Shown here piece by piece: positions 49,855-62,260 of a stretch of 64,000 bases of DNA; positions within the stretch are counted from its first letter, which is position 1, and the number at the start of each line of letters is the position of its first letter. The position numbers were made by a program, and so were the translations under genes. Source of the DNA: Nitrospirales bacterium (GTDB taxonomy: Bacteria; Nitrospirota; Nitrospiria; Nitrospirales; UBA8639); the NCBI GenBank assembly GCA_012270585.1, contig JAAXIB010000088.1, forward strand, positions 64,419 to 128,418. Reading direction: 5' to 3'. Below the pieces are notes generated by a model. It was given only the letters and a program-made list of their open reading frames with translations, was not told where the DNA came from and made no database searches.

Positions 49855-50184
49855 ATGACGCACTATCACGACGTTGCCAAACTGGAAGACCTCGAACCCG
49901 GAACGTGCCTGTCGGTTGAAGGCGACAACGCTCCCGATGTGGCATTATTTAACGTGGATGGGGACATTCTGGCCCTGGATAATACGTGCCCTCACGCGGG
50001 AGGCCCGCTTGGGGAAGGAACGCTGGAAGGAGAGGTCGTCGAATGCCCATGGCACGGCTGGGAATTCAACGTGCGCACGGGACAATGCATGAAAAATCCC
50101 ATACAGGAGTGGGCTGTGCCCTGTTACCGGACACGCGTGGAAAACGGCATCATCCAGGTCGCGTTTCCGAGTGAAACCCCATGA
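49855..50184 (+). CDS. Rieske-type [2Fe-2S] ferredoxin (NirD-like)
   Basis: The 109 aa protein holds a single Rieske domain with both cluster motifs: NTCPHAGGPLGEG (C-x-H) and ECPWHGWEFNVRTGQ (C-x-x-H). Such stand-alone Rieske proteins act as electron carriers for oxygenases or as NirD-like subunits. No partner enzyme is encoded next to it. ATG 49855 follows GGAG at 9 nt spacing; the longer in-frame ATG at 49741 adds sequence with no family match. Its 3' end overlaps the convergent gene at 50150 by 35 bp, which is unusual. Confidence 0.88.
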   Translation: MTHYHDVAKLEDLEPGTCLSVEGDNAPDVALFNVDGDILALDNTCPHAGGPLGEGTLEGEVVECPWHGWEFNVRTGQCMKNPIQEWAVPCYRTRVENGIIQVAFPSETP

Positions 50185-50626
50185 GAGGCTCAGATATCTG
50201 GTCCTGATGCGGCAACGGCGGCAACTCATGAAACGGCATGAAGTGAACGGCGGCCAGAGAAATCACCCTGATGGTTTTATCCTTTAACGTGACCCGCCAG
50301 GCAAACTCCCGTTCAATCCATTCATTAAATCCTTTCTCACGAACCAGCATCCTGACCGCGTAGACACCGGGGCGTTCTTTGCCCACCTGCCACTCGCCTT
50401 GATGCAGGGGCGTTCCCTGCGCTTTCAACTCTGCGACGTACTTGTTGATCGCATCCTCCAACGTGGGGGCATTTCGAGCGGGATGGGAACGCACCAACTC
50501 CAAGGCTTCATACGCCTCGGGATCATCGGGAACATCGAGCGTTCCCCCCTGGGGACGGGAAAACACGAAACCCACGATGACCAGCGCGCCAAGCAGAACA
50601 AACCCGATCAGGCTCCGAACGTTCAT
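50150..50626 (-). CDS. Unknown membrane-anchored protein ending the cobalamin operon
   Basis: The 158 aa product has one N-terminal membrane segment (SLIGFVLLGALVIVGFVFS). A soluble domain of helices and strands follows (LEDAINKYVAELKAQGTPLH, YAVRMLVREKGFNEWIEREF and AWRVTLKDKTIRVISLAAVH). It probably faces the periplasm. I recognise no family. Its ATG overlaps the cobD stop by 4 bp (ATGA), so it is co-expressed with the cobalamin genes under the btuB riboswitch. Its tail overlaps the convergent Rieske gene. A role in corrinoid handling is only an inference from position. Confidence 0.65.
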   Translation of the reverse strand: MNVRSLIGFVLLGALVIVGFVFSRPQGGTLDVPDDPEAYEALELVRSHPARNAPTLEDAINKYVAELKAQGTPLHQGEWQVGKERPGVYAVRMLVREKGFNEWIEREFAWRVTLKDKTIRVISLAAVHFMPFHELPPLPHQDQISEPLMGFHSETRPG

Positions 50627-51735
50627 GGTTGCGCCTTCACCACGCGTTGCATTTGTTTCACCAATCGAGCATTTTCGTGTGACGTTTTCACGGCAAACCG
50701 AAGCATTCGCTCATGAAGCCCAGGGTAATTTGAACAGTCCCTGACCAGAAAACCGCGTTCCATCAACGTCGCCTGTACCTGACGATTCGTCAGCGATCCG
50801 GACAACTCTACCAGAAAAAAATTTGCAGACGAAGGATACACCCGGACCCCGGGTATCCGCTCAAGCGCCCGCCTGAAGACCTGACGTTCCTTTTGGAAAA
50901 ACAGCAACGTCCTTTTTCTGTAATCAGTGTCCTGCATACAGGCCAAGGCCGCTTCCTGGGCCAACGTATTCACCGACCAGGGGGGAAGCCGATTCCTGAT
51001 CGCCCGGAGCCTCTTTTCCGTCCCCACGGCATACCCGATCCGAAGGCCGGGAATCCCGTAGAACTTGGTAAAACTTCGCAGCACCAGCAACGAATCATCG
51101 CAAACGGCCCGTCGGATCACCGATTTTTCCTCGCAAAACTCCACGAACGTCTCATCCACGATCAGACATCCACCCCGTCGTTTGACGGACTTCAAAAGAC
51201 GATGGACGCTGTTTCGTGAGATACTCTGCCCGGTCGGGCTGTTCGGATTACACAGGAACACGGCATCAATCGGCAAACGGCCGGAACCGGAGGAAGGCGG
51301 TTGTTCCACTTGTTCCAGTACTTCGTAAACGGGCGGACGATAATCGTTTTCCGAGCGTGCCACGATACGCGTCACGCGAGCATGTGCCAGCGTCAACACC
51401 CGTTCATATTCGGAAAAGGTCGGACCAATGATCAACCCGTGCCGGATGTCCAAGGCGGCAGGAATGGCATAAATCAGTTCCACCGTTCCATTCCCCAGCA
51501 ACACGTTACACGGGGAAAGACCGTGCCGTTCGGCAATGGCATGGACTAAGGCCAGGCATTCGGGATCAGGATAATGCTGAACTTTGTTGATGGCGGTTTG
51601 CAAAACGCGTCGTGCGGCAAGAGGAACACCCAGAGGATTGATGCTGGCGCTGAAATCGCACAAATCCGATGGATCCCGGGACAAGAGCCGGGCGGCGTGG
51701 TACACGTTCCCGCCGTGGCTTACAGGCCGTTCCAC
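50623..51735 (-). CDS. cobD: Threonine-phosphate decarboxylase-like CobD
   Basis: CobD makes (R)-1-amino-2-propanol phosphate, the linker of the nucleotide loop. The ~370 aa PLP enzyme is of the histidinol-phosphate aminotransferase fold. Landmarks are HGGNVYHAARLL at the N-terminus, DFSASINPLGVP, NPNSPTGQSISRN, the PLP lysine in RSFTKFYGIPGLRIGY, and SSANFFLVEL. GTG 51735 is preferred because the HGG motif starts six residues later. A longer open frame upstream runs antisense-like through cbiB and is not protein-like. It overlaps cbiB by 16 bp and the next gene by 4 bp. Confidence 0.9.
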   Translation of the reverse strand: MERPVSHGGNVYHAARLLSRDPSDLCDFSASINPLGVPLAARRVLQTAINKVQHYPDPECLALVHAIAERHGLSPCNVLLGNGTVELIYAIPAALDIRHGLIIGPTFSEYERVLTLAHARVTRIVARSENDYRPPVYEVLEQVEQPPSSGSGRLPIDAVFLCNPNSPTGQSISRNSVHRLLKSVKRRGGCLIVDETFVEFCEEKSVIRRAVCDDSLLVLRSFTKFYGIPGLRIGYAVGTEKRLRAIRNRLPPWSVNTLAQEAALACMQDTDYRKRTLLFFQKERQVFRRALERIPGVRVYPSSANFFLVELSGSLTNRQVQATLMERGFLVRDCSNYPGLHERMLRFAVKTSHENARLVKQMQRVVKAQP

Positions 51736-52688
51736 AATGTTGCAAAGACCACGGCCAACACGATGGCTATCCCGAATGAAATCCACATCAATTCTATCGC
51801 CAAGGGAACGTGACGGGCTTGCGGTACATTTGCGGGATCGCCTATTTGCGGGCGTTCGATTTGAACGCCATTGTAGACGGTCGGCCCGCCCAACAGGATC
51901 CCCAATGCACCGGCCATCGCCGCCTCGGGATGGCCGCTGTTGGGACTGGCATGCTTGGCGCAATCCCGTCGATAGATCCTCCATGCATTCGCCACGGCGG
52001 CATGGCGAAAGTACGCCGACACCACCAGCAACCCCGCGCTCATCCTCGAAGGAATGAGATTGGCGAAATCATCGAGTTTGGCTGACGCCCATCCAATGTC
52101 ACGATACGATGCGTCCCGATGCCCGATCATTGAATCCAAGGTATTGACGGCTTTATAGGCTAACGCCAACGGCGGTCCACCAACGACAAGATAGAGCAAC
52201 GGCGCAATCACCCCATCGGACGTATTTTCGGCCATGCTCTCAATAGTCGCTCTAGAGATTTCGGTTTCCGTCAACCGTTCGGTATCCCGCCCGACCATGA
52301 ACGAAACGGCCTGACGGGCCTCCCGCAATGAGCCGGCGCAAAGACTGTGATACACCGCCCACGCGTGACTCGCCAAATCCTTGGCCGCCAACGTCGTGTA
52401 GCCCAGCACAATCCACAGAAGATGGCCAAACCATGGATGCACAAGAAACGCAAGTTTCAACGCGCCCCATGCCGCCAAAAAGCTCAGCCCCGGCACGAAC
52501 AGGGCAAGGAGGATACCGGCGATGCGCCGCATCGCACCGGAAGTGAACCGGTTTCTGATCACCGGTTCACACCGGTTGATGCACGCCCCCATCCACCTGA
52601 CCGGATGCGGCATCCACCGGGGATCTCCCAGAAACCCGTCAAGAGCACAAACAGCCAAAAGATTGACGGCGATCATACAGCCCACCAT
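51720..52688 (-). CDS. cbiB: Adenosylcobinamide-phosphate synthase CbiB
   Basis: CbiB, an inner-membrane protein (322 aa), joins the aminopropanol phosphate made by CobD to adenosylcobyric acid. The N-terminus (LLAVCALDGFLGDPRWMPHP, then VRWMG) is the family signature. AENTSDGVIAPLLYLVVGGP and AYKAVNTLDSMIGHRDASY are the conserved central loops. Several hydrophobic segments follow. Its ATG shares one base with the stop of the CWC protein gene (TGATG), and it overlaps cobD downstream. In many genomes this protein is annotated as CobD in the aerobic nomenclature. Confidence 0.94.
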   Translation of the reverse strand: MVGCMIAVNLLAVCALDGFLGDPRWMPHPVRWMGACINRCEPVIRNRFTSGAMRRIAGILLALFVPGLSFLAAWGALKLAFLVHPWFGHLLWIVLGYTTLAAKDLASHAWAVYHSLCAGSLREARQAVSFMVGRDTERLTETEISRATIESMAENTSDGVIAPLLYLVVGGPPLALAYKAVNTLDSMIGHRDASYRDIGWASAKLDDFANLIPSRMSAGLLVVSAYFRHAAVANAWRIYRRDCAKHASPNSGHPEAAMAGALGILLGGPTVYNGVQIERPQIGDPANVPQARHVPLAIELMWISFGIAIVLAVVFATLWNGL

Positions 52689-52882
52689 CAGCCCACGTTG
52701 AGATCAAGATCCCCCGCGCACAGGGCCTTCAAGCATGACGGGCACAGGCAATCCGCGAACCGTTCGGCAATGTCCGCGTAGAGGGCGTCAGAAACCGGCA
52801 CGTCGGCACACCAGCACCCGTACAGCCCGCACGTAAAGGCACAGCCGCATTGCCCGCACGTTTTCTCGAGATGGCGTTTCAC
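52688..52882 (-). CDS. Small cysteine-rich CWC-family protein
   Basis: This 64-residue protein holds ten cysteines: CGQCGC near the start, then FTCGLYGCWCADVP (the CWC signature), and CLCPSCLKALC near the end. This spacing suggests one or two zinc or iron-sulfur sites. CWC-family proteins have no established role. It begins with GTG 52882, three bases after the cobS stop, and its TGA overlaps the cbiB ATG. It is therefore tightly embedded between two membrane-bound cobalamin enzymes and must be co-translated with them. Confidence 0.75.
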   Translation of the reverse strand: MKRHLEKTCGQCGCAFTCGLYGCWCADVPVSDALYADIAERFADCLCPSCLKALCAGDLDLNVG

Positions 52883-52885
52883 AAA

Positions 52886-53650
52886 TCAGAAAACCACCAG
52901 CAACAGGAGCGGCGGCGCGGCGAACAGAAACAGGATTTCCGTGACTTCATTGATCGCGCCAAGCACGTCTCCCGTGATCCCGCCGAAAACCCGAGAGCAC
53001 AGAAACGCCATCGCCCGCGCCGAGATTGGAGTGAGACCCAACAACAACACGCCTGCGTGCCACCCGAGGGTGGCACAGACAAAAACTCCGGCCCAAACGG
53101 TGGCCCAGAGCACGTCACTCAACCGGATCTCGTTCAAAAAGTCGGAGGCAAGACCGCCCTCCGCCCGGGCATGCGAACTGCCGAACGTACTGACCACCAT
53201 GGCCCATCTCCCGAGCACCGGCATGCATAACAACAGACCCGTTCGCTCAGGAGAAGGCAGATGCAGGATGCCTGCGAAGCGCAACCCCAGTACCAGGACC
53301 AAGCCGGTCGCACCCAGGGCGCCGATGCTCCCGTCTTTCATCACCGCCAACCGCTCCGCAGGACTGCCCCTTTTGCCCAACCCGTCAATGGTATCGGCCA
53401 ATCCATCCTGGTGTAACCCTCCGGTCAGGACAACCAGGACGCACAGGATCAGCAGCGCCGTCACGTCCGTCGTCAGAATCATGCCGAATACAGCATCGCT
53501 GGCAACAAGTATTCCCCCGATAACCAAGCCAACCGCAGGGTACCATTGCATGGAGGACGCCAGTTCCCGCGGGGCAGGCTGAGCGGGCGATGACTTCCAA
53601 AGCGGAATGATCGTGAGAAAATGCCAAGCTAACAGGGAGGATTTGATCAT
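52886..53650 (-). CDS. cobS: Adenosylcobinamide-GDP ribazoletransferase (cobalamin synthase)
   Basis: CobS, an integral membrane protein (254 aa), joins adenosylcobinamide-GDP to alpha-ribazole (phosphate), the last assembly step. The family motif GGLHQDGLADTIDGLG lies at about residue 77, with LAVMKDGSIGALGATGLVLV next, and several transmembrane helices follow. The GDP-activated partner comes from CobU and the ribazole from CobT, both encoded upstream. It overlaps cobT by 4 bp (ATGA), and the CWC protein starts 3 bp later. Confidence 0.94.
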   Translation of the reverse strand: MIKSSLLAWHFLTIIPLWKSSPAQPAPRELASSMQWYPAVGLVIGGILVASDAVFGMILTTDVTALLILCVLVVLTGGLHQDGLADTIDGLGKRGSPAERLAVMKDGSIGALGATGLVLVLGLRFAGILHLPSPERTGLLLCMPVLGRWAMVVSTFGSSHARAEGGLASDFLNEIRLSDVLWATVWAGVFVCATLGWHAGVLLLGLTPISARAMAFLCSRVFGGITGDVLGAINEVTEILFLFAAPPLLLLVVF

Positions 53651-54738
53651 GGGCGTCCGGGCTCCGACTTATGTTCCGATAGCGCACCTGAAATCCGTGC
53701 TTCCTCAAACGTGGCCATTTCACCATAGATTTTCAAGGCGGCGTGAATGAGCGTGACGGCCAGGCAGGAGCCGGTCCCCTCGCCAAGCCGCATCCGCAAA
53801 TCCAACAACGGATCGAGCCCCAAGTGCTCAAGTACGATCCGGTGTCCGGGTTCCCGGGACAGGTGCGACGCGATGAGATAGTCCCGGCACCGGGGTTCCA
53901 GTGCCACGGCGACCAACGCACTCGCTCCGGTAATGAACCCATCCAGCACCACCGGCACCTGACAGGCCGCTGCCCCGAGCATCAGACCGGCCATCCCGCC
54001 GATTTCGAACCCACCAACCGTCGTCAAGACCTCGATGGCGTCGGAGGAAGACGGGTGATGTAGATCAAGTGCCCGCTCAATAACGGAAATTTTCCGCTTC
54101 AGGGTTTGATCATCGACACCGGTTCCCCGGCCCGTGACCTTTTCCACGCTTTGCCCAGTCAGCACCGACACGACGGCGGCACTCGTCGTCGAATTACCGA
54201 TGCCCATTTCCCCGACGGCAATCAGATTTTTCCCTTCCGCGCAAGCGAACTTTGCCAGGTTCATCCCGACCTGAACCGACTGCACCGCCTGCTCACGGGA
54301 CATCGCTGGTTCACGAAGGAAATTTTTCGTTCCATAGGCGATCTTGTGATCCAGGAGGCCGGCACATGCGCTGAGGTCCTCAGCCACTCCCATGTCCACC
54401 AAACGCAGGGATGCTTCGGCATGGCGAGCCAGGACGTTCACGGCGGCACCACCCTGGACGAAATTTTTCACCATCTGCGCAGTCACGGATTGCGGATACG
54501 CGCTCACCCCCTCGGCCGTCACGCCGTGGTCGGCCGCCAGCGTAAACACAACGGAGTCGAGACGGGGAGCGGAGGCATTACCGGTCATTGCACAATAGCG
54601 CGCGGCAATTTCCTCGAGCCTTCCCAGGCTGCCCACGGGTTTGGTGAGCGAATCGAGCCGGGCTTGCGCCCGCAGCCGAACAGCCTCGTCGGGAGACCTC
54701 AAGGCCGGGACAATCAGATCTATTCCGTCTTCGCTCAT
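53647..54738 (-). CDS. cobT: Nicotinate-nucleotide--dimethylbenzimidazole phosphoribosyltransferase
   Basis: CobT transfers ribose-phosphate from nicotinate mononucleotide to the lower-ligand base, giving alpha-ribazole phosphate. The 363 aa protein shows FTLAADHGVTAEGVSAYPQS, VGEMGIGNSTTSAAVVSVL and EVLTTVGGFEIGGMAG, and a Glu-containing C-terminal LRMGEGTGS-type loop (LRMRLGEGTGSCLAVTLI). No bluB or bzaA-type gene for the base itself is in the window. It follows cobU by 26 bp and overlaps cobS. Confidence 0.95.
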   Translation of the reverse strand: MSEDGIDLIVPALRSPDEAVRLRAQARLDSLTKPVGSLGRLEEIAARYCAMTGNASAPRLDSVVFTLAADHGVTAEGVSAYPQSVTAQMVKNFVQGGAAVNVLARHAEASLRLVDMGVAEDLSACAGLLDHKIAYGTKNFLREPAMSREQAVQSVQVGMNLAKFACAEGKNLIAVGEMGIGNSTTSAAVVSVLTGQSVEKVTGRGTGVDDQTLKRKISVIERALDLHHPSSSDAIEVLTTVGGFEIGGMAGLMLGAAACQVPVVLDGFITGASALVAVALEPRCRDYLIASHLSREPGHRIVLEHLGLDPLLDLRMRLGEGTGSCLAVTLIHAALKIYGEMATFEEARISGALSEHKSEPGRP

Positions 54739-54764: not shown

Positions 54765-55298
54765 TTACTTTAATTTCACGGGAAGTCCGCTCACGGAAAA
54801 ATACACGGCATCGGCTGCCGCGGCAACGCGTTGATTCATGACTCCCGCGAGGTCTCGAAATTGCCGTGTCACGGCGTCGCCCGGAACGATCCCCAGGCCC
54901 ACTTCATTACTCACCAACACCACCGTACCGGGAACCATTCGAGCCGATTGCATCAGCTCATTCGTATAGACAGGGATTTGAGACGCCTGAATCCCGCTCT
55001 CGAGAAGATTCGACAACCACAAGGTCAGGCAATCGACTACCACCGTCTTGTACAAGACACCTTTGCTCCTGAGCCAACCGCTCACGTCAATCGGAATTTC
55101 GTGGGTTTCCCAGGATGGGTCACGGTCCTGTCGATGCTTTCGAATGCGCGCGGCCATTTCCTCGTCACCGGGTTCTCCGGTCGCGACAAAGGCCCTGGGC
55201 AAGGCCTGTCCCGCCAACGTGAAGACCAGCCGGCTTTTCCCGGAACGTGCCCCCCCAAGCACGAGACACAGATGAGAAGAACCGTCACCGCCATTCAT
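54765..55298 (-). CDS. cobU: Adenosylcobinamide kinase / guanylyltransferase
   Basis: This bifunctional enzyme (177 aa) phosphorylates adenosylcobinamide and then transfers GMP to it. The P-loop is LVLGGARSGKSRLVF. The segment ATGEPGDEEMAARIRKHRQD contains the His expected to be guanylylated in the second step. VVDCLTLWLSNLL and VLVSNEVGLGIVPGD complete the family pattern. It sits 60 bp after the PduO-type gene and 26 bp before cobT in the riboswitch-controlled operon. Confidence 0.95.
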   Translation of the reverse strand: MNGGDGSSHLCLVLGGARSGKSRLVFTLAGQALPRAFVATGEPGDEEMAARIRKHRQDRDPSWETHEIPIDVSGWLRSKGVLYKTVVVDCLTLWLSNLLESGIQASQIPVYTNELMQSARMVPGTVVLVSNEVGLGIVPGDAVTRQFRDLAGVMNQRVAAAADAVYFSVSGLPVKLK

Positions 55299-55358: not shown

Positions 55359-55940
55359 TCAGGTCTCCCGTTCCCACAAATACTCGGGTTCCCCTTGAGT
55401 TTTGGCGGTCCAGCGCGCCAACACGAACAGGGCATCACTCAACCGGTTCAAGAACCGGACAAGATCGGAGGGAACCTCTTCCTCACGAGACAAGGTCACA
55501 CAGAGACGTTCGGCCCGCCGGCAAACGGTTCGGGCCTGGTGCAAGAAACCGGACACTTTCCCGCCTCCCGGCAGAATAAATTCTTTTAGCGGCTCCAGGT
55601 CTTCCTGACAGGCATCAATGAGGCGTTCCAACCGGACCACGTGATCGGCCGTCACCACCGGCATATTCTTGAAGGTCTCTCCCGGAGCCGTAGCAAGGAG
55701 CCCCCCGACGTCGAACAACTTGTTTTGGAGCCACCGCAAGTGCTCTTCGAGTTTCTCCCTGGTCGCAACCGTCCGGGGGTGCTCGGCATTCAACGCTCTG
55801 GCAATGCCGATGACCGAATTCAGCTCATCGACCGTGCCATAGGCTTCCACGCGCAAGGAGTCCTTCCACACTTCCTGCCCGCCGGCGAGCCGGGTTTTCC
55901 CGGCATCGCCCGACCTGGTATAGACTTTACTGATCCGCAT
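55359..55940 (-). CDS. PduO-type ATP:cob(I)alamin adenosyltransferase
   Basis: The 193 aa protein is the PduO/MMAB type of adenosyltransferase, which makes the Co-C bond of adenosylcobalamin. The N-terminal ATP-binding motif is RISKVYTRSGDAGKTRLAGG, followed by RVEAYGTVDELNSVIGIARA. The helical bundle has LDACQEDLEPLKEFILPGGG, ARTVCRRAERL and FLNRLSDALFVLARW. A second, unrelated adenosyltransferase (CobO) is encoded 44 bp upstream. PduO enzymes often serve salvage or a specific client enzyme, while CobO serves synthesis. Confidence 0.94.
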   Translation of the reverse strand: MRISKVYTRSGDAGKTRLAGGQEVWKDSLRVEAYGTVDELNSVIGIARALNAEHPRTVATREKLEEHLRWLQNKLFDVGGLLATAPGETFKNMPVVTADHVVRLERLIDACQEDLEPLKEFILPGGGKVSGFLHQARTVCRRAERLCVTLSREEEVPSDLVRFLNRLSDALFVLARWTAKTQGEPEYLWERET

Positions 55941-55984: not shown

Positions 55985-56584
55985 TTAAAATTCGATTCCC
56001 TTTTGGGCTTTGATACCTTTTCGAAAGGGATGTTTTAACATTTTCATTTCAGAGACAAGATCAGCGGCCTCCAGCAACTCCGGTTTGGCTCCCCGTCCGG
56101 TAATCACCACGTGCTGCATCACCGGCCTGTTTCGAAGGACGGCCAAGACTTCCGTCACGTCAACGTAATCATACTTCATGGCAATGTTCAATTCATCGAG
56201 GACAACCATGGCATAATCGGGGTTTTGCAGAAATTCCGCGGCTTTTCCCCAGGCTTCGCGGGTGACTTTCGTATCGCGTTCACGATCCTGGGTTTCCCAC
56301 GTATACCCTTCACCCAGGCGCAAAAACGTCACCAGATCTCCAAAGTCGCGCAAAGCCCGTTGTTCGGCCGTGTCAATCGCCCCTTTGATAAACTGCACCA
56401 CCGCTACCTTCATGCCGTGTCCGATACAACGCATGACCATGCCCAACGCCGCGGTGGTTTTCCCCTTCCCTGCGCCGGTGAACACGATCATAATGCCGCG
56501 CTCTTCCTTCGCAGCCTCGATGCGGCGATCGACCGAGGCTTTCACCCGCTGCATTTTCGCTTTATGGTCAGTCGATGCGTTCAT
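55985..56584 (-). CDS. cobO: CobO/BtuR-type cob(I)yrinic acid a,c-diamide adenosyltransferase
   Basis: The 199 aa protein is the CobA/CobO/BtuR type of adenosyltransferase, with the P-loop IVFTGAGKGKTTAALGMVMR, VAVVQFIKGAIDTAEQRALR, VVLDELNIAMKYDYVDVTEV, HVVITGRGAKPELLEAADLV and the C-terminal HPFRKGIKAQKGIEF. It adenosylates cob(I)alamin or its precursors. Positioned directly after btuB, it is probably the first enzyme met by imported corrinoids. It is separated from the receptor gene by 53 bp and from the PduO-type gene by 44 bp. Confidence 0.95.
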   Translation of the reverse strand: MNASTDHKAKMQRVKASVDRRIEAAKEERGIMIVFTGAGKGKTTAALGMVMRCIGHGMKVAVVQFIKGAIDTAEQRALRDFGDLVTFLRLGEGYTWETQDRERDTKVTREAWGKAAEFLQNPDYAMVVLDELNIAMKYDYVDVTEVLAVLRNRPVMQHVVITGRGAKPELLEAADLVSEMKMLKHPFRKGIKAQKGIEF

Positions 56585-56637: not shown

Positions 56638-58620
56638 TTAATTCATCCCAGCCCCGAATGGCAGATCAAAATTCGCGCGAATTCCGCCGAACACGGAACG
56701 TCTGGGAGTGCCGTAGTTCAAAATTTCCTCATAAGCCTCATCAAAGAGATTATCCACCCGAACGTACGCTTGAAATCGATCGGAAAAATTATAGTTCGCT
56801 GACAAATTCACGACTTCGAACGAGCCCATACGATCGCGATCCATGCTTCCATTGAAGCGTGCTCCTACATAACGAAAATCCAGGATCATGCTTAAAGAAT
56901 CGATGGGTTGATAATAGAGGCTCAGACTGGCTTGATCGACCGGCCAACGCGGCAATCTGGCATTGGTCATAAGATCACGGGTGAGGGTTGCGGTGTATTG
57001 GCCCTTCAGTTCCAATCGTTTCACCCAAGGTTGTTCCTGAAGCATGACAATATTCACCGAGCCCTCCCAGCCTTGCGATTTGGCCGAAGCCACGTTGCCG
57101 GCACAAGAACCCCAGGTGGAAAACGGCGCACAAATCGTCTCATTGTAAAGCACCCCTATGAGATTGCGATACCGATTCCAGAAATAGCCGCCGCTGATTG
57201 TCATTCTGCCGGCAAGCAATGTCTGATCCACACCCACGTCGAAACTTTGACTTTTTTCCGGCTGTACGTTGGGATTGCCATAGTTTGGCCAGAATAAATC
57301 ATTAATCGTTGGAGCCCGGAATCCCGTGGCATAACTGCCGCGTATTTTCGTGTTCGTCTCCTTGACCAAATATCCACCGGTTATACGATACGTCGTGGCA
57401 TCGCCAAACGTGTTATAACTGTCGTGCCGGACCCCGGCCGTGGCAAAGAATCGATCAAACAGGTTAAGTTGCATCTGGCCGAACCCTGCATGGGAAGAAA
57501 GGATCTTCTCGGAGATTCCTACCTCATTCTCTCCCAATTGCTCACGAAATTGATAGCCTGCCGTCAACGTGACGTATTGATTCAGGCGAAAGTCATGTTG
57601 ACTTTCGATACGATTCGCCAGCACGCGTATTTCGTTAGGGGTATCCCAAGAGGGAATGGGTTCCACTACCCCAGTTGACAAATTTCGACGTGAAGTCCCC
57701 GGGTCATACAGACCTGTCTCTTGAGCGCGAGAAAGCGTCAACACATGATCCCACCAATCGGTCAACGGTTGTTGATACGTTCCGCTGAAAATGAATTGTT
57801 CGCTTTGACTCTTGGCATTGAAAACATCATAGGGACCGAAACCAGAACCGTTGTCGATACCGCGTGAGCCGTTCCACCACCGAAAATTGAAATCGAGTCG
57901 TCCCTCGGAAGGCAGCGCCATGCCCAATCGGGAAGAACCCTGCCAATTCCGATAAGCATCGCGTTCATTCGCTCCTCTCCGATCATTGACCGCCGAGATA
58001 CCCGTGGTATCCCACCGGGAAAGCGCAAATGAAAAATCAAACGGCCCCTTGCTGCCGGATACGGTCCCGCCTTCCCGCAACGTATTGAACGATCCGTATT
58101 CAAAGAACGCACCGGCCTTCGGAGACCCTTTTCCCCGTTTCGTCGTGATGTTGATCACGCCGCCCAAGGCATCGGCCCCCCAAAGCGTGCTCTGGGCGCC
58201 CCGAACGATTTCAATTTTTTCAATATTGTCGATGGTCAGATGTGCGAAATTAAAGCTCCCCAACGTTGAGCTATTCACGATCGCTCCGTCGATGAGAACC
58301 AGGGTTTGATTGGAACTCCCGCCTCGAATACGTACAGTCGTACTCCCGCCCGGGCCACCGTTTTGAAACACGGCTGCACCTTGTGACAAGCGGAGAGCTT
58401 CCACCACCGTCTTGATTTGACGCTGCTGGAGGTCTTCTTCGGTCCAGACTTCGACCGTACTCGTCACCTGCCGAAGGGGAACCGGTGTTTTCGTGGCGCT
58501 CACGACCACGGTGTCCAGAGTCTGAACATCCGAGCTAGTCTCAGGTGATTGACCAAATGAAAATACGGGGATAACCAGAAAGTGTAGAAGAAGAAAAATG
58601 AAAACGAAGCGATGAAACAT
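56638..58620 (-). CDS. btuB: TonB-dependent corrinoid receptor BtuB-like
   Basis: This 660 aa outer-membrane receptor has a signal peptide (FVFIFLLLHFLVIPVFSFGQ) and a TonB-box-like start (QTLDTVVVSATKTPVPLRQV). A plug domain follows (QGAAVFQNGGPGGSTTVRIR, then IEIVRGAQSTLWGADALGGV), and then a beta-barrel ending NFDLPFGAGMN. The cobalamin riboswitch directly upstream and the cob genes downstream make corrinoid uptake the most likely substrate, rather than a siderophore. The start has a strong AGGGAGG site that can be paired into a CCCTT/AAGGG hairpin, suggesting translational control by the riboswitch. Confidence 0.9.
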   Translation of the reverse strand: MFHRFVFIFLLLHFLVIPVFSFGQSPETSSDVQTLDTVVVSATKTPVPLRQVTSTVEVWTEEDLQQRQIKTVVEALRLSQGAAVFQNGGPGGSTTVRIRGGSSNQTLVLIDGAIVNSSTLGSFNFAHLTIDNIEKIEIVRGAQSTLWGADALGGVINITTKRGKGSPKAGAFFEYGSFNTLREGGTVSGSKGPFDFSFALSRWDTTGISAVNDRRGANERDAYRNWQGSSRLGMALPSEGRLDFNFRWWNGSRGIDNGSGFGPYDVFNAKSQSEQFIFSGTYQQPLTDWWDHVLTLSRAQETGLYDPGTSRRNLSTGVVEPIPSWDTPNEIRVLANRIESQHDFRLNQYVTLTAGYQFREQLGENEVGISEKILSSHAGFGQMQLNLFDRFFATAGVRHDSYNTFGDATTYRITGGYLVKETNTKIRGSYATGFRAPTINDLFWPNYGNPNVQPEKSQSFDVGVDQTLLAGRMTISGGYFWNRYRNLIGVLYNETICAPFSTWGSCAGNVASAKSQGWEGSVNIVMLQEQPWVKRLELKGQYTATLTRDLMTNARLPRWPVDQASLSLYYQPIDSLSMILDFRYVGARFNGSMDRDRMGSFEVVNLSANYNFSDRFQAYVRVDNLFDEAYEEILNYGTPRRSVFGGIRANFDLPFGAGMN

Positions 58621-58654
58621 GCGTCACCTCCCTTTGACTCGAAGGGTGTGTCCA

Positions 58655-58830
58655 GAGGTCAACGACAGTTGGGTCTCCTGACTCGCGGATCATCACTACC
58701 CTGCACCTTCCCATGAACGTTCCGTTCACAGTGGTCTATTGCAGATCATTCCCCGCTTACAGTGGCGGCACCGTGATGGGTTTGCACCATCTTCCCCGTC
58801 GCTGTCGTTGTGTTTTCCTGAGGAACGCCT
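58655..58830 (-). ncRNA. Cobalamin riboswitch upstream of btuB
   Basis: Read on the minus strand, the leader contains the conserved order GGTGCAAACCC, GCCGCCACTGTAAGCGGGGA, a second CCACTG, GGGAAGGTGC and the B12-box-like AGTCAGGAGACC. These are the hallmarks of the adenosylcobalamin aptamer. Between the aptamer and the btuB ATG, CCCTT (in ACCCTTCGAGTC) can pair with AAGGG of AAAGGGAGGT, hiding the ribosome binding site. There is no U-run, so control is probably translational. The switch should turn down the following uptake and synthesis genes when cobalamin is plentiful. Confidence 0.93.
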
Positions 58831-58917
58831 CCTGTTGAATTGGTAATCATGTGGTGAACGTTTCAAGGCCGTCACCACGTCGGCCATTTGGATCGGCTGC
58901 CCTCTTTCCCGTTCCGT

Positions 58918-59751
58918 TCAGACCGGCAAAGTGACCCGCGGCCGTCCCGATTGCGGATGTCGATCGACCAGCACGGGGCAGCCATAGACCCGTTCCAGAG
59001 ATTCCCCGGCAATGACTTCCTCGGGTGAACCCATGACCACAATCTCCCCTTCCCGTAACAGCAACAACCGGTCGCAGTATTGACTGGCCAGGTTGAGATC
59101 ATGGGACACCAGCACAACGGTCAATCCCCGTTCCCGATTCAACCGACGAATGATTCGCGCAATCTCCAATTGGTGATGGAGATCCAGAAAGGCCGTCGGC
59201 TCATCCAACAGCAGGATTTCCGGCTCCTGGGCCAAGGCCCGGGCAATCACGGCTCGTTGTCGCTCCCCGCCGGAGAGGTTGGTAATCAGCCGGACCCCAA
59301 GGTGGGCAACGTCCATGTCTCTCATCGCTTGCATGGCCACGGCACGATCCCGTGAGCCTTCCCATCCCAAACCCCACGTTCGATTGTGGTGGGGATACCG
59401 CCCCATCAATACCATTTCGCTGATCGTAAAAGGAAACGCCTGTTGGGTTTCCTGCGGAACGAAGGCCACGCGACGGGAAATCTCGGCCTGGGGAAACGCA
59501 ACATGGGATTGACCAAACAGCTCGATCCTCCCCTGTTGGGGAATCAGGATTCTCATAAGCACTTTCAACAAGGTGCTTTTCCCGGACCCATTGGGCCCTA
59601 ATATTCCCAACACTTCCCCGGATTCTATTGTGAGCGAGACGTTTTTCAAAACCGGCGTCTGAACGGCTGTTTCCTTTCGGTCGAACCCGAAGGTCACGGC
59701 ATCCATCACAAACGGCGGTTGCCACGTTGGCGTTTCCGGATATTCACTCAC
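58918..59751 (-). CDS. btuD: Corrinoid ABC transporter ATP-binding protein BtuD
   Basis: The 277 aa ATPase powers import through BtuC. Walker A is ILGPNGSGKSTLLKVL, the Q-loop lies in FVPQETQQAFPF, the ABC signature is NLSGGERQRAVIARAL, Walker B is EILLLDEPTAFLDL, and the switch His lies in LVSHDLN. It resembles the iron-siderophore/B12 (FecE/BtuD) class. The riboswitch two genes upstream assigns it to corrinoids. Its ATG overlaps the btuC stop by 4 bp. Confidence 0.92.
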   Translation of the reverse strand: MSEYPETPTWQPPFVMDAVTFGFDRKETAVQTPVLKNVSLTIESGEVLGILGPNGSGKSTLLKVLMRILIPQQGRIELFGQSHVAFPQAEISRRVAFVPQETQQAFPFTISEMVLMGRYPHHNRTWGLGWEGSRDRAVAMQAMRDMDVAHLGVRLITNLSGGERQRAVIARALAQEPEILLLDEPTAFLDLHHQLEIARIIRRLNRERGLTVVLVSHDLNLASQYCDRLLLLREGEIVVMGSPEEVIAGESLERVYGCPVLVDRHPQSGRPRVTLPV

Positions 59752-60914
59752 GCGACGACTCTCCTGCGTTGCCGGACCAGCAAATACAGAAAGACCGGGC
59801 CTCCGACCAGGGCCGTCACCACGCCCACGGGGATTTCCGTCGGACTCAACAGCGTCCTGGCCACGGTGTCCGCCAGCATGAGGAAGATGCCTCCGATCAT
59901 GCCCGACGCAATCAATAAGAGTCGATGATCGGCGCCGAACACCAGGCGAACCGCATGGGGCACGATGAGTCCCACAAATCCGATCAGGCCGCTAAAGGCC
60001 ACGACCGATCCCGTCAAGAGCGCGGCCGCGGCAAACAGGACGCGCTTGACCCGTTCAACCTCGACGCCGAGAGATCGAGCCGCCTCTTCGCCGAGCGTGA
60101 GCAGGTTCAAGGCGGACGCCTGGGAAACCAGCACAGCCACCCCCAGGAGCAGATACACGGCAAGAACCAGGACGGTCGGGAAATCCGGACCCGTCAACGA
60201 ACCCATCAGCCACGCATACATGCCCGAAGCCTTGTACGGGTCGGCCAGGGTGGTCAGAAACAGGATGAGCGCCGAAAAAATCGCATTCAGCACCACCCCG
60301 CCCAGCAACAGCGTATGAATCGAAAAACTCCCATAGGACACGGCAATGCGATAGACAATGAGGAGCGCCAGCAAGGCTCCCAGGAAGGCATAAAACGGCA
60401 GAACCGACAAACCGAGAATGGAAAGGCCGATGCCGAACAGCACGGCCACGGCCGCCCCGAGTGCGGCCCCGCTCGAAATGCCGATGACGTAGGGATCGGC
60501 CAGAGGGTTCCGAAGCAACGCCTGGAGTGACGCCCCTACGGCAGCCAGGCTTCCGCCGACCATAAAAGCGAGCAGGACCCTGGGAACTCTGACCTGCCAG
60601 AGAATAATGTAGTGGGGGGCGGCCTGCGTCTCTCCTGCGGCAAACGGCCCCTGTGCCAATAGCGCCGTGACGTTCGCGAACGAAATGGTCTCCGTGCCGA
60701 ATCCCAGACACGCCACGAAAACCAAAAGGGCCAACGTCCCCAACCCGCCGGACACACCGAGCCATTTCATCGGGGAAAGCGTGGCAACCGCTGGCACGGG
60801 CCGGGAGCCTTCTGCAAGGGGAAAGGATTCCGGCCTCGTAAGTAAAGCCGGCGCCGGCACGGCTGATGGGCCCCCGGCATAAGATTTTCCCGATGGAGAC
60901 GTAACGGAAGCCAT
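59748..60914 (-). CDS. btuC: Corrinoid ABC transporter permease BtuC
   Basis: This FecCD/BtuC-family permease (388 aa from ATG 60914) has a ~55 residue hydrophilic N-terminus and about ten membrane helices. Family landmarks are RVPRVLLAFMVGGSLAAVGA, LQALLRNPLADPYVIGISSG, AWLMGSLTGPDFPTVLVLAV, GLIGFVGLIVPHAVRLVFG and LSPTEIPVGVVTALVGGPVF. The frame is open further upstream, but that part overlaps btuF and is not protein-like. ATG 60914 falls 11 bases after the btuF stop, with GGAGG about 15 bases before it. It forms the channel with BtuD and receives substrate from the BtuF-like protein. Confidence 0.92.
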   Translation of the reverse strand: MASVTSPSGKSYAGGPSAVPAPALLTRPESFPLAEGSRPVPAVATLSPMKWLGVSGGLGTLALLVFVACLGFGTETISFANVTALLAQGPFAAGETQAAPHYIILWQVRVPRVLLAFMVGGSLAAVGASLQALLRNPLADPYVIGISSGAALGAAVAVLFGIGLSILGLSVLPFYAFLGALLALLIVYRIAVSYGSFSIHTLLLGGVVLNAIFSALILFLTTLADPYKASGMYAWLMGSLTGPDFPTVLVLAVYLLLGVAVLVSQASALNLLTLGEEAARSLGVEVERVKRVLFAAAALLTGSVVAFSGLIGFVGLIVPHAVRLVFGADHRLLLIASGMIGGIFLMLADTVARTLLSPTEIPVGVVTALVGGPVFLYLLVRQRRRVVA

Positions 60915-60924
60915 AACCGCGCGA

Positions 60925-61968
60925 TTACTCCTCCTGCCCCGCCACGGAAGAAACCGCGTCCGGGTGGAGTATGGTAATGAGTGCTTCCAGGGCGTCGAGC
61001 ACTCGAGGACCCGGTCGATTGAGGATGTCACTGTCGATCTGTACGAACTGATTCCGTTTGACCGCTTCAAGAGAGGTCCACCGCCGCCATTGATCCTGCT
61101 CGGCTTGCGGGATGCCCTCAAAACGACCCATCGGGAACAGCAAAAACTCGGGGTTCTGCCGGAGCACCTCCTCGATGCTCAGACGTGGATACGGGGTCCC
61201 CGCGTGTTCCGCGACGTTTCTGGCCCCGGCCAGTTCAATCAATTGGTGAATATAGCTCCCCGGACCGACCGTAATGAGTGGATCGGTATTGATCACGAAC
61301 AACAAGGTGGGACGTGACCGTCCTTCCAATCGAGCGGTAAGGACGGTCATTTGCTTTCGAATCGTTTCCGTTACCTTGAGGGATTCGGTGACCCGCCCCA
61401 CCACGCGGCCCAACAGTTGAATGTGGCGCAATATGTCCTCAACGGTTTGGGGATCCAGCAGGAGCGTCGGGATCTTCAATTGATCCAACCGGTTGAGCAA
61501 ATCGACTCTCAAGAAAGATTTCGGCGCCACAATGAGTTCGGGGCGTAGCGCGACAATGGATTCCAGATTAGGTTGGGCATACCCGACCTTCGGTTTGTCC
61601 AAGGCGGCAGGCGGATAGTTGCAGAATTCCGTCACGCCGACAATTTCCTGATCGAGGCCAAGGGCAAACAACATTTCCGTGATACTCGGAGCCAGGGACA
61701 CGATGCGCTTCGGTGGTTGGGCAAGATAGAGCTTACGGCCAAGGTCGTCGACAAAGGTGCGCGGCGCCACGTTGGCCATAAACGGCATGCCGGTGAGAAT
61801 CCCCTGTTGGCGGCGTTTCATGGTCGTGGAGTGATCGGAAAAACCGAACAGCGGTTCACAGACGGGGACAACCAGCGCGGTGACCGCCAGGACACAGGCA
61901 AACCCAAGGGCTCGCTTGCTCCCTTGCGCCTGACGACAACCTCGGACGAGCCGAACGCCCGGCAACAT
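60925..61968 (-). CDS. btuF: Corrinoid ABC transporter substrate-binding protein BtuF-like
   Basis: The 347 aa protein belongs to the helical-backbone class III binding proteins. A basic N-terminus and hydrophobic stretch (ALGFACVLAVTALVVPV) act as a signal peptide. The domain shows PPKRIVSLAPSITEMLFALG, IVGVTEFCNYPP, LESIVALRPELIVAPKS and PGPRVLDALEALITIL. It should bind corrinoid in the periplasm. The ATG follows directly on the U-run of a terminator hairpin, so it is exposed only when the riboswitch allows read-through. The exact start is uncertain because no ribosome binding site fits. Confidence 0.88.
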   Translation of the reverse strand: MLPGVRLVRGCRQAQGSKRALGFACVLAVTALVVPVCEPLFGFSDHSTTMKRRQQGILTGMPFMANVAPRTFVDDLGRKLYLAQPPKRIVSLAPSITEMLFALGLDQEIVGVTEFCNYPPAALDKPKVGYAQPNLESIVALRPELIVAPKSFLRVDLLNRLDQLKIPTLLLDPQTVEDILRHIQLLGRVVGRVTESLKVTETIRKQMTVLTARLEGRSRPTLLFVINTDPLITVGPGSYIHQLIELAGARNVAEHAGTPYPRLSIEEVLRQNPEFLLFPMGRFEGIPQAEQDQWRRWTSLEAVKRNQFVQIDSDILNRPGPRVLDALEALITILHPDAVSSVAGQEE

Positions 61969-62005: not shown

Positions 62006-62094
62006 TTCCCGCGTCATCATCCTCACCCGCTCCCCAGCCCACGAGGGATCGAAGGTCGCGAATCCCGGTCTCCGCTCCGATTCGGCACCACGGG

Positions 62095-62260
62095 ATTCTC
62101 CGCTCGGGTAGGTCTTCTGGCTTCCGGATCCTAACCTACTTCCCGCACCTTCCCGTCAATGTTTGGACAGTGGCTTCTGCGGGGTTCGTTTCCGGTTACA
62201 GCGGCGGGACCGCGAAGGAATTGCACCTTCTTCCCTGCACCCGGGCATCTCACTGTTGAA
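62095..62260 (-). ncRNA. Cobalamin riboswitch upstream of btuFCD
   Basis: Read on the minus strand, the order is GGGAAGAAGGTGCAATTCC, CCGCCGCTGTAACCGG, GAAGCCACTGTCC, GGGAAGGTGCGGG and the box GAAGCCAGAAGACCTACC. This is the full cobalamin aptamer pattern. About 90 bases downstream a terminator precedes btuF, so control is probably transcriptional, unlike the btuB switch. It starts about 30 bases after the cobQ stop. Confidence 0.93.

Follow-up and report, generated by a model that had tools for sequence, protein, structure and literature searches.

The Cys_rich_CWC family (PF14375) comprises proteins with a common cysteine framework and a CWC motif, and its function is uncharacterised. A member of the family from Sulfurospirillum (Campylobacterota; SMUL_1567, SUSP_RS14220) is encoded in the norcobamide cluster, where its gene is flanked by cbiA and the gene for precorrin-2 dehydrogenase. 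In the report on this cluster, the gene is listed in tables and is induced together with the norcobamide genes on tetrachloroethene (PCE) (PMC7755780). Apart from that paper, no description of a link between CWC and B12 was found in the open literature; an earlier description may exist in subscription papers.

Cysteine-rich proteins of other kinds are also associated with B12. The zf-like protein PF04071 is, like CWC, a small cysteine-rich protein encoded in cob operons, but its cysteine pattern differs, and homology between the two was rejected (hhalign probability 1.1% over three columns). The C-terminal domain of class II ribonucleotide reductase (NrdJ) is likewise cysteine-rich, probably zinc-binding and B12-related; it comprises 150-220 residues with six conserved cysteines at its end (PMC5704485). 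A relationship of CWC to this domain was rejected on size and pattern.

The route of corrinoids from the importer through the adenosyltransferase to the membrane assembly enzymes is poorly known in bacteria, and the CWC protein is a concrete candidate for a component of it. In this study, we analysed a PF14375 member encoded in a 64,000-nucleotide stretch of DNA (the window) from a Nitrospirales MAG (phylum Nitrospirota). The protein has the cysteine framework and the CWC motif of the family at large. However, it belongs to an F-x-C clade that is tied to B12 loci, whereas the Sulfurospirillum proteins are of the N-x-C type and differ in the position of their genes, and PF14375 of Comamonas adjoins a DHHA1 protein without B12 neighbours.

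Results

The CWC gene lies in a predicted operon headed by a cobalamin riboswitch

The features of the window that bear on the CWC gene are as follows.

62090..62259, minus strand: second cobalamin riboswitch (RF00174, 96.7 bits), upstream of the importer operon
58918..61968, minus strand: neighbouring importer operon of the btuF-btuC-btuD type
58651..58847, minus strand: cobalamin riboswitch (RF00174, 93.0 bits) at the head of the CWC-bearing operon
56638..58620, minus strand: btuB-like TonB-dependent receptor (Plug and beta-barrel), first gene of the operon, after the riboswitch
55985..56584, minus strand: btuR/cobO-type adenosyltransferase (PF02572, TIGR00708)
55359..55940, minus strand: pduO-type adenosyltransferase (PF01923, TIGR00636)
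54765..55298, minus strand: cobU (PF02283)
53647..54738, minus strand: cobT (PF02277, TIGR03160)
52886..53650, minus strand: cobS, adenosylcobinamide-GDP ribazoletransferase (PF02654, TIGR00317)
52688..52882, minus strand: CWC protein gene (PF14375), 64 amino acids, ten cysteines
51720..52688, minus strand: cbiB, adenosylcobinamide-phosphate synthase (PF03186, TIGR00380)
50623..51717, minus strand: cobD/cobC-type threonine-phosphate decarboxylase (TIGR01140), last cob gene; start approximate, the listed reading frame opening at 51984, within cbiB

CWC is the seventh gene in a same-strand run of nine (btuB-btuR-pduO-cobU-cobT-cobS-CWC-cbiB-cobD). Judged by the uninterrupted course of this predicted operon from the RF00174 element, the CWC gene is assigned to the cobalamin-riboswitch regulon. 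Only two cobalamin riboswitches were found in the 2.5-Mb genome, both inside the window. After cobD lies a gene for a 158-amino-acid protein (window 50150-50626) with no Pfam or NCBIfam match; it occupies the same place across the genus and adjoins pduO in the Nitrospirales genome G125.

A genome search found the CWC gene to be the only PF14375 gene of this MAG. The reading frame opens with GTG, a start kept as GTG or ATG among congeners, and has 64 codons. In a Pfam profile search, the protein matched PF14375 over positions 1-50 of 50 with 34.1 bits (E 3.7e-8), above the curated gathering cut-off of 24 bits; this full-domain score, the conserved cysteines and the CWC motif place it in the family. 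The dN/dS values of 0.11-0.38 against close relatives and congeners indicate that the protein is under purifying selection. The ten-cysteine gene inside a cobalamin operon, first recognised by a sequence-only reading of this DNA, is real. That reading had also described a 3-base gap to cobS and a one-base overlap with cbiB. The gap is present here and kept within the genus, while the overlap depends on the first ATG of cbiB and is probably an artefact of start-codon choice. A cbiB start placed 12 bases later (ATG-ATC...) is common to the congeners, so the real spacing between CWC and cbiB is probably an 11-base gap.

Conserved cysteines and predicted structure

The cysteines of the window protein are located at positions 9, 12, 14, 18, 23, 25, 45, 47, 50 and 55. 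In an alignment of 86 CWC sequences, which includes the Sulfurospirillum and Comamonas members, Cys 9, 12, 18, 23, 25, 45, 47 and 50 and Trp24 were invariant, and Cys14 and Cys55 varied. Of the ten cysteines, from whose density a metal site had been proposed, only eight are family-wide. These eight make a metal site likely, and it is plausible from the alignment that the CWC protein binds metal, with zinc as the first candidate.

The sequence contains no membrane segment. The AlphaFold2 model, with two short strands and two helices, had a moderate mean pLDDT of 75, and a Foldseek search of the PDB with this model gave no significant neighbour (best E 3.2, mostly PHD fingers). Searches of the PDB by sequence and by profile returned no significant match; weak matches to RadD and to zinc fingers were at chance level and were rejected.

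CWC genes of Nitrospirota are placed at many B12 loci

A search of 296 Nitrospirota genomes for PF14375 gave 93 places in 82 genomes; 92 of these places could be mapped to sequence and were counted. A B12-regulon gene on the same strand lay within 1.6 kb in 88 of the 92. Three of the remaining four had no B12 neighbour, and one was a broken fragment on a 4-kb contig. Because the genomes are related, the 88 places do not represent 88 independent events, and the number of different placements is the stronger argument. At least eight arrangements at B12 loci were distinguished. The most frequent, with 41 places, was btuR-CWC-pduO, in which a BluB-like nitroreductase gene often separates CWC from pduO. 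Next came cobS-CWC-cbiB and btuB-CWC-pduO (15 places each); cobQ-CWC-cobU, btuR-CWC-cobQ, btuR-CWC-cobU, metE-CWC, nrdB-CWC and btuD-CWC-cbiX were also found. The B12 neighbourhood is kept in 16 Nitrospirales genera. The majority of Nitrospira copies lie downstream of btuR, the cobS-CWC-cbiB order occurs only in the family of the window genome, and genomes of one genus (g4) carry copies at both positions. Cobalamin riboswitches were present in the window and in 19 of the 20 B12-linked CWC loci scanned, the exception (L172) being located at a contig edge.

A contig assigned to a Chloroflexi MAG (L082/L171) carries the order btuB-btuR-CWC-cobU and closely resembles Nitrospirales. It probably belongs to Nitrospirota and was mis-binned, and it was left out of the independent evidence.

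A second sequence type closes B12-bypass operons

A second, paralogous type of CWC sequence has N-x-C in place of F-x-C, the type of the window protein, before the third cysteine. It formed a separate branch with support of 100/99 in a tree built on just 67 columns. In three Nitrospira loci (L161, L164, L166), an N-x-C CWC gene is the last gene of a riboswitch-nrdA-nrdB-metE-CWC operon, and in a fourth (L159) it closes a riboswitch-nrdA-nrdB-CWC operon. In two further loci (L162, L163), it separates a riboswitch-headed btuB/btuFCD locus from a riboswitch-cbiX unit. NrdAB and MetE stand in for NrdJ and MetH and do not depend on B12, so that these operons, too, comprise genes for B12 scarcity. 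Two Nitrospirota of another family, related at class level (L157, L158), carry an N-x-C CWC gene apparently in a mobile or defence island, among PAPS-reductase-like, DNA-processing and replication-like genes.

Co-occurrence with the corrinoid salvage and assembly genes

CWC was found in 85 of the 88 Nitrospirales genomes that have CobS (78 by Pfam and seven by a tailored profile) and in two of the 11 in which CobS was not detected. In one of these two (G269), the CWC gene follows btuB-cbiA at the end of a contig, and CobS was therefore probably lost in assembly. The other (G125, 99% complete) keeps pduO-CWC at a contig end (G125:C54:34007-34752; locus L172); CobS, CbiB and BtuR were not detected in this genome, and only pduO and CWC are retained of the operon. 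Three genomes have CobS without CWC: G165 possesses CobS and CobT and lacks CbiB, BtuR and CWC, and the region looks fragmentary in G255 and G261. In nine genomes without CobS, CbiB and BtuR, CWC was absent too, and PduO was present in eight of them. These results fit a role of CWC alongside the genes of corrinoid salvage and assembly as a group, not alongside CobS alone, and part of the co-loss could be explained by deletion of adjoining genes. A pairing of CWC with PduO alone was considered and dropped, as nine genomes have PduO without CWC. Across the phylum, CWC was found in 82 genomes and CobS in 245; most Nitrospirota outside Nitrospirales make or salvage corrinoids without CWC, which is therefore not essential to the pathway.

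CWC in other phyla

CWC is rare in Chloroflexota, where it was found in two of 201 genomes with the Pfam profile and in six of 400 with the F-x-C alignment. In two of these genomes (G325, G670), assigned to this phylum by their grouping with a record named Chloroflexi, CWC forms the N-terminal part of a 436-439-residue BtuC-type permease, with PF14375 at residues 16-60 and FecCD beginning at residue 111 or 114. The fusion gene is flanked by btuF on one side and by btuD and then cobQ on the other, and a partial cobalamin riboswitch is located upstream. Chloroflexota matches at two further loci (L199/L200) were left out because no clear gene could be assigned to them.

B12 neighbours were not seen beside PF14375 in Comamonas and Vibrio (plasmid-collection records), in one Chloroflexota genome (L209) or in the two Nitrospirota island loci described above. 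The family is therefore broader than B12. A tblastn search of plasmids with the window protein gave no match. In a Vibrio campbellii record (L205:7725-8189), a fusion of CWC to DUF1289 is encoded close to the genes for heme O synthase and cytochrome oxidase.

Discussion

These results give PF14375 a context, with the caution that the B12 link is common to just some of its clades. CWC recurs, under the B12 riboswitch, at operons for corrinoid uptake, adenosylation and loop assembly as well as at B12-bypass operons, and it occurs as a BtuC-type fusion. The suggestion that the protein has to do with corrinoid metabolism is strongly supported by the 88 of 92 places, the variety of arrangements and the fusion in another phylum. 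The expected enrichment beside cob genes was found, but as a trait of certain clades and not of PF14375 as a whole. The narrower proposals of the sequence-only reading fared less well. A dose tied to CobS and CbiB is not supported as the general function of CWC, since most Nitrospira copies follow btuR and the cobS-cbiB order is restricted to one family. A complex specific to CobS and CbiB is at odds with the btuR and btuB placements, with the CWC gene of G125, where neither enzyme was detected, and with the BtuC fusions. On the best reading, CWC would act in the uptake, adenosylation and assembly of corrinoids, and not in such a complex.

With moderate confidence, we propose that CWC is a dedicated accessory protein of the regulon for B12 scarcity, located in the cytosol and probably metal-binding, which serves in docking or hand-over on the inner membrane face. 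A cytosolic location fits the lack of a membrane segment and the fusion of CWC to the N-terminus of BtuC, which is cytosolic in BtuCD structures. When B12 is scarce, CWC would be made alongside the corrinoid receptor, the adenosyltransferases and the nucleotide-loop enzymes. Its eight invariant cysteines would hold a metal, most likely zinc, and the protein may work as a docking or hand-over module at the cytosolic membrane face. There it could help to pass the incoming corrinoid from BtuCD to BtuR/PduO and on to CbiB/CobS. Another possibility, tentative and in our view unlikely, is a corrinoid hand-over or reduction module not recognised before: the CWC domain would receive the corrinoid at the cytosolic side of BtuC and, after its reduction or dealkylation, deliver it to the adenosyltransferases.

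It is possible, though we would not expect it, that CWC is a structural zinc-finger adaptor which never contacts the corrinoid and holds BtuR, PduO and CobU near BtuCD, CbiB and CobS. The eight invariant cysteines are consistent with such an adaptor, as is the prevalence of PHD cross-brace zinc fingers among the (non-significant) fold neighbours. The fusion of CWC to a permease terminus that is cytosolic in BtuC also speaks for it. However, the copies with nrdAB and metE, which have no membrane partner, are left unexplained by it.

The adjacency of CWC to btuR and pduO in most Nitrospira would also suit an electron carrier, with an iron-sulfur or thiol site, that would reduce the Co(II) of corrinoids for BtuR/PduO and whose paralogue would serve NrdB of the class I ribonucleotide reductase. 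A ferredoxin, YfaE, serves NrdB in E. coli, and CWC adjoins nrdB in one genome and ends nrdA-nrdB-metE in three others. This explanation is nevertheless improbable: to our knowledge the cysteine spacing matches no familiar iron-sulfur motif, and electrons are required neither by MetE nor by the placement between cobS and cbiB.

Doubtful to a high degree is a cobalt or zinc buffer or chaperone, which would deliver cobalt to be inserted by CbiX, or zinc to MetE, under B12 shortage. The richness in cysteine, the position next to cbiX in two genomes and after metE in three, and the precorrin-2 dehydrogenase gene beside the Sulfurospirillum member agree with this function. However, the main CWC sites are late-pathway and uptake operons, in which cobalt is already in the corrinoid, and eight thiolates would make an unusual cobalt site. 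Finally, that CWC is a mere hitchhiker in a B12 operon is hardly credible, for although most bacteria make cobamides without it and nine genomes lost it along with the operon, it has many placements in one regulon, is kept in 16 genera under purifying selection and is fused to BtuC in another phylum.

The occurrence of PF04071 in comparable positions suggests that the cob pathway repeatedly calls for small cysteine-rich partners. PF04071 was not found in Nitrospirales. It occurs in cob operons of some other Nitrospirota, fused to or beside CobU, with apparent fusion to the CobU end in two genomes (L211, L212; G207, G072). In Sulfurospirillum, it is located between cobT and cobS (L203:3403-3660).
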